Of a stretch of 64,000 nucleotides of DNA, positions 25,570-37,864 are shown in pieces. Numbering within the stretch: the stretch's first letter is position 1; each line of letters begins with the position of its first letter. Position numbers and translations under genes: made by a program. Source of the DNA: Thiotrichales bacterium (GTDB lineage Bacteria; Pseudomonadota; Gammaproteobacteria; Thiomicrospirales; Thiomicrospiraceae); the NCBI GenBank assembly GCA_016938655.1, contig JAFGUG010000026.1, forward strand, positions 62,001 to 126,000, read 5' to 3'. The notes below the pieces were generated by a model, which was not told the origin of the DNA, did no database searches, and saw only the letters and a list, made by a program, of their open reading frames with translations.

Positions 25570-26175
25570 CTAGGCTAATTCAGTAAGAAAACTCGCTAAG
25601 GAATCTCTTTTAGCGTAAGACTTTTGGCAATCTGGCTTTTGATAACCTATATATAAAGCACCAATTAACTCTATTTTTTCTGAATGAATATTTAACTTCT
25701 TCATAGTCCTTTCATCTTTTAAAATTGGGCCAGTACTCCATTGAACACCCAATTTAAGACTCCATGCCATGAGTTGAAAGTTTTGAATTGCACAGGCACA
25801 AGCAGCATAATCCTCTTTTAACGTTACAGGATCATTACTTAAGGCTTGTCCAACTAAAATAACTTTTGGAATTGCCAAAAACTTTTCTACGGCTTTTGTA
25901 TACAGTTCTTGATACAAATCAGTGGATTTATCGGCTTTTTTTAACGCTCTATTCTCGGCATAGATGTGTGCCAAATCTGCTTTAGCTTGTTGACCAATAA
26001 TCCAAAAACGCCATGGTTGGGTTAATTTATGATTAGGAGCCCAACGAGCCGCTTCTAAACATTCATAAAGCAATTCATCTTTAATTGGATAGTCGTTTTG
26101 GTCAGCATACTGATAACAGGTTCGTCTGTCTTGAATTAATTGTTTTAAAGAATCGCTTGAAATAGGGTTTGTCAT
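25570..26175 (-). CDS. Nitroreductase family FMN-dependent oxidoreductase
   Basis: The 201-residue protein has the nitroreductase-fold marks: RRTCYQYADQ near the N-terminus, ARWAPNHKLTQPWRFWIIG (FMN binding), DYAACACAIQNFQLMAWSLKLG and a C-terminal GALYIGYQKP. It probably reduces nitro or quinone compounds with NAD(P)H. Its position upstream of an RND pump suggests a detoxification unit, which is inference. It is divergent from the OxyR-like regulator across the candidate origin region. Confidence 0.9.
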   Translation of the reverse strand: MTNPISSDSLKQLIQDRRTCYQYADQNDYPIKDELLYECLEAARWAPNHKLTQPWRFWIIGQQAKADLAHIYAENRALKKADKSTDLYQELYTKAVEKFLAIPKVILVGQALSNDPVTLKEDYAACACAIQNFQLMAWSLKLGVQWSTGPILKDERTMKKLNIHSEKIELIGALYIGYQKPDCQKSYAKRDSLASFLTELA

Positions 26176-26239: not shown

Positions 26240-26520
26240 CATTATCCATTAAATGCTTTCCCTCCTACAAGCCAACAACAAGGTGTATAACTTGTTAAGG
26301 ATTGTGGATAACTAACCTTAAAAAGACATTTGTTAATTTTATCCACAAAACATGCACCTTTATCCACTCCACTTATGTAATGGGTAGTACAGTCTATACT
26401 CACAAGCTAATTGTCTGAAATAATTTAGATAACTTTATTTATCAACAGTAAACCACGTCACTAAGAGTAATAAAGAAAAGATTAAATAGAAAACTATATA
26501 CTTTATATATTAATAAAACC
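26240..26520. other. Candidate chromosomal replication origin (oriC): DnaA-box cluster
   Basis: This is the only gap longer than 300 bases (26176-26543) in the window. It holds two perfect DnaA boxes TTATCCACA (26303-26311 on minus, 26339-26347 on plus), and near matches TTATCCACT (26360-26368, plus), TTATCAACA (26439-26447, plus), TTATACACC (26282-26290, minus) and TTATCCATT (26242-26250, plus). An AT-rich block follows. Hand counts suggest that GC skew changes sign near here, and four parS-type sites lie in the same window. Alternatives are a DnaA-titration locus or DnaA control of the flanking divergent promoters. No dnaA gene is in the window. Confidence 0.62.
26461..26520. other. AT-rich block, possible DNA unwinding element
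   Basis: Fifty of these 60 bases are A or T. The block directly follows the DnaA-box cluster on the side of the OxyR-like gene, as a duplex-unwinding element would. It also overlaps the likely promoter of that gene, which would itself be AT-rich. Confidence 0.45.
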
Positions 26521-26543: not shown

Positions 26544-27482
26544 ATGACATTAAATGAACTTAAATACATTGTTGCTGTTGCTAAAGAAAAGCATTTTCGT
26601 AAAGCATCAGAAACCTGTTTTGTAAGCCAACCTACTCTAAGTGTGGCTATTAAAAAATTAGAAGAAGAGCTTGGTGTTATTCTTTTTGAAAGACGTAAAC
26701 AAGACGTGTTAATTACCCCAATTGGTAAAAAAATAATTAGCATTGCTGAAAACATGCTTGAACAGAGTAAATCAATTAAGCAAATTGCTTTAGAGTCACA
26801 AGGAAATCTTTCTACTGAACTTAGAATTGGTGCTATTTATACTATTGCGCCTTATCTGCTTCCCAAGCTCATTCCAAGTTTTCAAAAACATGCACCTAAC
26901 GTGCCTGTCATTATTGAAGAAAACTACACCCACGTATTAGCAGAAAAATTACAAACAGGTGAAATTGACATTGCTATTCTCTCTTTGCCTTTTGAAGAAC
27001 CTAATATCGAAACTTACACACTTTATGAAGAACCTTTTAAATTAATTTTGCCTAAACAACATCCAATTGTTGATGGACAGCATAGCGTTGCGATTGATGA
27101 CATTGAAGATGAAACCATCCTACTGTTAGGCGCGGGTCACTGTTTTAGAGATCAAGTTGTTGAAGCTTTTCCAAACTTATTGCATTTGAACTACCAAAGT
27201 AATCGTTTACAAAAAACCTTTGAAGGCAGCTCTTTAGAAACCATACGTTATATGGTTGCCTCTGGAGCAGGTATCTCTATATTTCCATGTACTTCGCTTA
27301 CTAATCATGATGAAAGTCTATTTAGAATAAAAAATTTAAGTCACCCTACCCCAACTCGAAAAGTGGCTTTAGCATGGCGTAAAAGTTTTCCAAGAATGGA
27401 AGTGTTGGAGTGTTTTAAGCAATCCATTCTTGATATTGATATTCCGTGTACAATCTCAATTATTAATAAATCAGAAAACTAA
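26544..27482 (+). CDS. OxyR-like LysR-family regulator lacking the resolving cysteine
   Basis: The 312-residue LysR-type regulator has an N-terminal winged helix-turn-helix (FRKASETCFVSQPTLSVAIK) and an OxyR-type sensor domain. The peroxidatic motif GHCFRDQV is present with Cys200. The resolving cysteine expected nine residues later (C199 and C208 in E. coli OxyR) is Phe209 in VVEAFPNL. It may sense peroxide through a sulfenate or mixed disulfide, or may have drifted to another role. It reads away from the candidate origin and from the nitroreductase gene. The mlaA gene starts one base after its stop. Confidence 0.88.
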   Translation: MTLNELKYIVAVAKEKHFRKASETCFVSQPTLSVAIKKLEEELGVILFERRKQDVLITPIGKKIISIAENMLEQSKSIKQIALESQGNLSTELRIGAIYTIAPYLLPKLIPSFQKHAPNVPVIIEENYTHVLAEKLQTGEIDIAILSLPFEEPNIETYTLYEEPFKLILPKQHPIVDGQHSVAIDDIEDETILLLGAGHCFRDQVVEAFPNLLHLNYQSNRLQKTFEGSSLETIRYMVASGAGISIFPCTSLTNHDESLFRIKNLSHPTPTRKVALAWRKSFPRMEVLECFKQSILDIDIPCTISIINKSEN

Positions 27483-37757: not shown

Positions 37758-37864
37758 GATGACTCCAATAAAGAGAACTATGAAACGGCTAATAATTATT
37801 AAGGTTAGAATAGCAAAGAAAGGACTAAACCCTTCATGATTCAGAATAATTTCACAGGGTAATA

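Follow-up and report, generated by a model that had tools for sequence, protein, structure and literature searches.

Does a cluster of DnaA boxes lying tens of kilobases from dnaA, in the gap between two divergent genes, mark the origin of replication of the bacterium that carries it? We analyzed a 64-kb stretch of DNA (hereafter the window), which corresponds to positions 62001-126000 of the 157,970-base contig C78 in a 2.93-Mb assembly of 108 contigs (completeness 95.66%, contamination 7.72%). The boxes are found between a nitroreductase-family gene and an oxyR-like gene of the LysR family, whose product recovers an OxyR chain as its top PDB match (6e-88), features GHCFRDQ at Cys200 and has the OxyR model as its top NCBIfam match, at 221 bits, under the cut-off of 329 bits for that model. 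This protein is 69-79% identical to Thiomicrorhabdus homologues and, judging by these relatives, the contig is assigned to that genus. Based on the sequence of the gap (approximately 26282-26520) and its relatives, we predict that it is very probably the oriC of the source bacterium and of most of its family. The features on which this prediction draws are as follows:

25570..26175, minus strand: nitroreductase-family gene (PF00881), left flank
26282..26290, minus strand: degenerate DnaA box TTATACACC, two mismatches, the farthest out of the boxes on the minus strand, with an ATAA core that a 43-genome alignment shows to be conserved
26303..26311, minus strand: perfect DnaA box 1, TTATCCACA, forming an inverted pair with box 2 at a 36-nt offset
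26339..26347, plus strand: perfect DnaA box 2, TTATCCACA, inverted partner of box 1
26360..26368, plus strand: DnaA box 3, TTATCCACT, one mismatch
26396..26404, plus strand: half site resembling a box (consensus TTA..CACA), in columns conserved across the 43-genome alignment
26408..26420, minus strand: IHF-like 13-mer; the window copy is weak, with 2 mismatches
26439..26447, plus strand: DnaA box 4, TTATCAACA, one mismatch, proximal to the predicted DNA unwinding element (DUE) and counterpart of E. coli R1
26461..26520, no strand: AT-rich DUE predicted by composition, 50 of 60 bases A or T
26463..26480, plus strand: six AAN trinucleotides (TTN on the other strand), from the 43-genome alignment
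26544..27482, plus strand: oxyR-like LysR-family gene (PF00126/PF03466), right flank
27732 (C78:89732), no strand: cumulative GC-skew minimum of the 158-kb contig

The two perfect boxes reported in the initial annotation are indeed present and are the only perfect copies of TTATCCACA in the whole 64-kb window. Of the four near matches that it counted, the two with one mismatch (26360 and 26439) hold up, whereas the others appear only when two mismatches are allowed; between 26271 and 26543 such two-mismatch boxes are found at 26282 (TTATACACC, minus), 26424 (TTATCTAAA, minus) and 26520 (CCATCCACA, plus). Across the window, sites matching the box to within one mismatch show only a mild excess (27 versus a mean of 17.7 in shuffled sequence, with 27 or more in 4 of 100 shuffles). 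The top 300-nt box-cluster score on the contig is 6, against a maximum of 4 in 200 first-order Markov contigs; thus, it is the clustering of the boxes, rather than their number, that stands out. The same score of 6 is reached once more on C78, upstream of dnaA. The block with 50 A or T in 60 bases is likewise where it had been described, and a count of at least 50 is attained by just 0.3% of the 60-base stretches in the window.

Also correct was the claim that the window lacks dnaA and mnmG, both of which are encoded on the same contig: the dnaA domain lies at C78:52403 (9.6 kb to the left of where the window begins and 36 kb from the boxes), and mnmG at C78:32316-33497 (55 kb from the boxes). 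An ORF that we take, by recognition, to be dnaN seems to follow dnaA. Scans of the 64-kb window for tRNAs and Rfam families returned no matches. On C78 there are eight parS-like sites with at most two mismatches, while 20 shuffled palindromes yielded none; those with one or two mismatches flank the putative origin on either side over about 100 kb (e.g., C78 46292, 68101, 105400 and 128586).

The skew minimum had been named in the initial annotation as a check on the oriC reading, and in C78 it falls at 89,732, only 1.4 kb from the boxes (which begin at 88,303) and 37 kb away from dnaA. In 11 of 11 genomes, which represent five genera, the retrieved stretch (80-180 kb each) has its minimum within 8 kb of the element. 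Within the genus of the window, the minima and boxes are at 37,830 and 36,494 (G017), 401,915 and 405,256 (G040), 32,552 and 36,962 (G022), and 83,220 and 81,671 (G018). In six genomes of four other genera, the minimum was compared with the start of oxyR: 99,401 and 98,921 (G057), 174,650 and 170,065 (G067), 84,241 and 83,093 (G059), 62,507 and 63,587 (G072), 2,377,786 and 2,378,993 (G066), and 62,515 and 54,868 (G047), the last being the farthest off at 7.9 kb. In the nine stretches that contain it, dnaA is 15-99 kb from the minimum or the element; more generally, the element and dnaA are separated by 19.5-104 kb (median 39.7 kb) in the 37 genomes with both on one contig. A global check with 20-kb samples all round three complete chromosomes (G017, G018 and G057) indicates that the sign of the skew switches twice, once at the element and once roughly half a chromosome from it. 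In G017 it is positive from the element and turns negative between 1.22 and 1.4 Mb (-0.018 in the 1.3-Mb sample), in G018 between 1.42 and 1.6 Mb, and in G057 between 1.32 and 1.5 Mb; the points opposite the element, worked out by hand, are at 1.31, 1.50 and 1.41 Mb, respectively. We infer that replication starts at the gap.

Conservation in relatives, the other check named in the initial annotation, also came out in favor of the proposed origin: related genomes carry the boxes in this same gap and at the same 36-nt offset. The exact inverted pair, with 27 bases between the boxes, is present at one place each in 19 of 32 genomes of the genus. With two mismatches allowed, a pair is recovered in 27 of the 32, including G034 and G036, where it is at another locus; we discounted the matches in these two, as the pattern spans the junction of two adjacent ORFs, and likewise their weak matches to the model described below. 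The genome of the window has one further two-mismatch pair match, on contig C3. Family-wide, 51 of 62 genomes possess an oxyR homologue at E <=1e-80, and 43 of these 51 display the inverted pair at the 36-nt offset with no more than 3 mismatches in 18 positions; one of the 43 (G058) has its pair at a doubtful place in the alignment, which may be due to chance. Among the eight that fail this test is G016, which is cut by a contig end.

We further searched these 62 family genomes (an order-level search gave the same 62) with a sequence-only model built from 37 origins, the E-values of which are rough. Matches at E <=0.01 were found in 57 of the 62, or 55 without G034 and G036, and 18 of these 55 were absent from model building. 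A comparison of coordinates places a match directly upstream of oxyR in all 51 genomes with that gene. In G016, the assembly breaks inside the element and the match is split over contigs C31 and C43. Anything else that the model picks up is either weak (best E 1.4e-4, in G063) or a reverse reading of that locus. All four genus g2 genomes (G043-G046) have a match to the element and none to oxyR, the match in G045 being a weak reverse reading (E 0.0017). Here, one side is occupied by a nitroreductase gene (G043, G044 and G045) or a MobA-like gene (G046), and the other by mlaA behind an NlpC/P60 gene in G044, G045 and G046, with a membrane-transport gene, which G045 and G046 show as an open frame, also preceding mlaA; in G043 the contig ends on the mlaA side. 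At these g2 loci (L184, L185, L186 and L189), oxyR is missing beside the predicted origin.

Neither the element nor a match to oxyR or mlaA is present in seven of the 32 genus members (G025, G027, G030, G034, G035, G036 and G039), the assemblies of which comprise 100-330 contigs each, and a search for their origin through mlaA gave no match. In six of these, both flanks of dnaA have negative skew, the seventh being a 4-kb contig; their origin may have moved or may be unassembled. We also compared eight more distant oxyR loci (L024 and L026-L032), leaving L033 (25% identity) out of the outgroup count. The region upstream of oxyR contains one perfect and three one-mismatch boxes in L024 and three one-mismatch boxes in L026, while the remaining six (Sedimenticola, Thiolapillus, Chromatiaceae and one gammaproteobacterium) have no upstream box within one mismatch; as the available upstream sequence is one base in L027 and 335 nt in L029, five of these box-less loci offer at least 335 nt. 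Relative to G017, oxyR and the origin element in G012 and G022 are reversed with respect to dnaA while remaining almost equally far from it (about 36 kb), suggesting that the origin segment has been inverted.

The 43 putative origins, aligned on the inverted pair, share a common order of elements: the ATAA core, box 1, box 2, a CACA site, the box-3 region, the TTA..CACA half site, the IHF-like 13-mer, box 4, the six AAN triplets, a TATATA-rich block and oxyR. The box-3 position is a box with at most one mismatch in several relatives and degenerate in others, whereas the TTAT of box 4 is conserved at 95-100%. The IHF-like 13-mer, a putative site by sequence, has no mismatch in 13 genomes, one in 22, two in 7 and three in 1; thus, 35 of 43 have at most one, against two in the window copy, and the chance of a site with at most one mismatch at a fixed place in shuffled sequence is 0.24%. 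It is separated from box 4 by 18 nt in 43 of 43 genomes, and box 4 is separated from the triplets by 14 nt in 25 genomes and 15 nt in 18. In the triplets, the two columns of each A pair are 67-100% A, whereas the third position is unconstrained. This array is presumably an unwinding or single-strand DnaA element, and the TTA..CACA half site presumably has low affinity for DnaA.

We read this element as an oriC of the E. coli type. Like the E. coli reference in the mnmG-mioC gap (NC_000913.3 3925744-3925975), it displays TTATCCACA boxes in two opposed orientations with a predicted DUE on one side, and the E. coli order is matched by its minus strand: DUE, R1-type box, 18 nt, putative IHF 13-mer, same-direction sites and opposite-direction boxes. 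In E. coli, R1 is likewise followed after 18 nt by the IHF 13-mer, and R1 is 15 nt from the first AA/TT pair (counted by hand), as against 14-15 nt here. The two differ in gene context, which is nitroreductase-oxyR here with mnmG 55 kb away, a difference of address and not of working; in the box pair at the 36-nt offset, which E. coli does not have; and in GATC, which is frequent there and absent from 26282-26520 in the window copy. Therefore, there is no sign of Dam/SeqA sequestration, though this absence bears on sequestration and not on origin status. The B. subtilis basal unwinding system, which consists of DnaA boxes and DnaA-trios (PMC8287927), is similar in having a box, a short spacer and a trinucleotide array. 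In trios, the middle A belongs to the strand with its 5' end directed away from the box (PMC8287927); the conserved A pairs here are on the opposite strand, and we rejected trios of the B. subtilis type.

By analogy with E. coli, we posit that DnaA would first bind the strong boxes 1 and 2, after which DnaA-ATP would fill the weaker same-direction sites, namely box 3, the TTA..CACA half site and box 4, with a bend introduced by IHF at 26408-26420 possibly assisting. DnaA would then pass from box 4, which corresponds to R1, to the TTN triplets and the AT-rich block, and this block beside oxyR would melt and take the helicase. In this scheme, protein binding, the loading order, the role of IHF and initiation are all modeled on E. 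coli.

Upstream of dnaA there is a second, tandem array of boxes (L005:11743-11806, equivalent to C78:51743-51806, outside the window), with all boxes in one direction at intervals of about 25 and 30 nt. All 16 genomes examined have two or more boxes there (three or four in all but two), mostly in register, and the surrounding ORFs, which we named by recognition, presumably form an order resembling the classic cluster. The Pseudomonas oriC lies in the rpmH-dnaA gap. Like that type of origin, the array here includes perfect boxes upstream of dnaA, and an origin at dnaA, with the gap boxes serving as a secondary DnaA site, would account for both the array of two to four boxes and the gene order. 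Against this, the array is one-directional and lacks a clear skew switch, the sign not changing across dnaA in 15 of 16 stretches (the remaining one is a 4-kb contig), and the minimum stays with the oxyR gap even where dnaA is 81-98 kb away. We therefore regard an origin at dnaA as very unlikely and posit that this array mediates dnaA autoregulation, a role that boxes serve at the E. coli dnaA promoter (PMC5835720), or is a relic of a dnaA-side origin.

That the gap is a DnaA titration or nucleotide-exchange locus of the datA/DARS kind and no origin would fit its combination of boxes and a putative IHF site, as boxes and an IHF site also make up datA (PMC5835720). However, the element coincides with the skew switch in all 11 stretches, combines the AT-rich block with a triplet array in the E. 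coli register, and has only weak model matches elsewhere in the genomes, making such a function highly improbable. The position between two divergent genes also admits operators of the OxyR or nitroreductase promoter that resemble DnaA boxes by chance, but this is exceedingly improbable: the element is kept in the four g2 genomes, one of them weakly, that have no oxyR match, outgroup oxyR homologues are without boxes, and the pair persists in two genomes whose oxyR match has in-frame stops (G042:C1:33787-34719, with one mismatch, and G026:C76:3429-4313, perfect). OxyR-type half sites in the gap score 10.2 of 16 bases in 51 genomes versus 10.2 in shuffled sequence, and were rejected as being at the chance level.

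Because the AT-rich block ends 24 bases before the start of oxyR, transcription of this gene or OxyR itself could conceivably make origin opening responsive to peroxide or oxygen in these sulfur oxidizers, with the conserved array at dnaA setting the supply of DnaA. Such a kept functional pair of oxyR and origin is unlikely, given that the gap has no OxyR-type site above chance and that the four g2 genomes do without oxyR there. A LysR-type gene of B. subtilis was tested for a link to initiation and showed none under the conditions used (PMC12779278).

The oriC reading is thus supported by the skew minimum near the boxes and by their conservation in relatives, and the gap combines this polarity switch with a box cluster beyond chance and an AT-rich block by composition. 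It has all four features assumed of gammaproteobacterial origins in one such analysis (PMC7174414), being intergenic, near the skew minimum and equipped with a DUE and DnaA boxes. The placement had been called unusual; this stands in so far as neither dnaA nor mnmG adjoins the gap, but an oriC apart from dnaA is known from E. coli (PMC8287927). More broadly, oriC may occupy gene contexts other than dnaA that are conserved within groups (PMC4285127), and the predicted origin of Francisella has dnaA near it (PMC5859110). In the literature searched on Thiomicrorhabdus, Hydrogenovibrio and Thiomicrospira, we found no placement of the origin, though DoriC may hold automatic predictions for this family. 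In 14 of 62 family assemblies, the first 1 kb of contig C1 holds the dnaA domain; therefore, these chromosomes look to be numbered from dnaA.

Thiomicrorhabdus, Hydrogenovibrio and their kin are sulfur-oxidizing bacteria. For most of this family, the gap very probably represents a known kind of origin at a new address, a region of about 240 bp between nitroreductase and oxyR, tens of kilobases from dnaA, to which neither of the usual landmark genes would lead. It would also provide a set of E. coli-like origins that keep the core spacing in another gene context, which may be useful for asking what in the E. coli origin is general.
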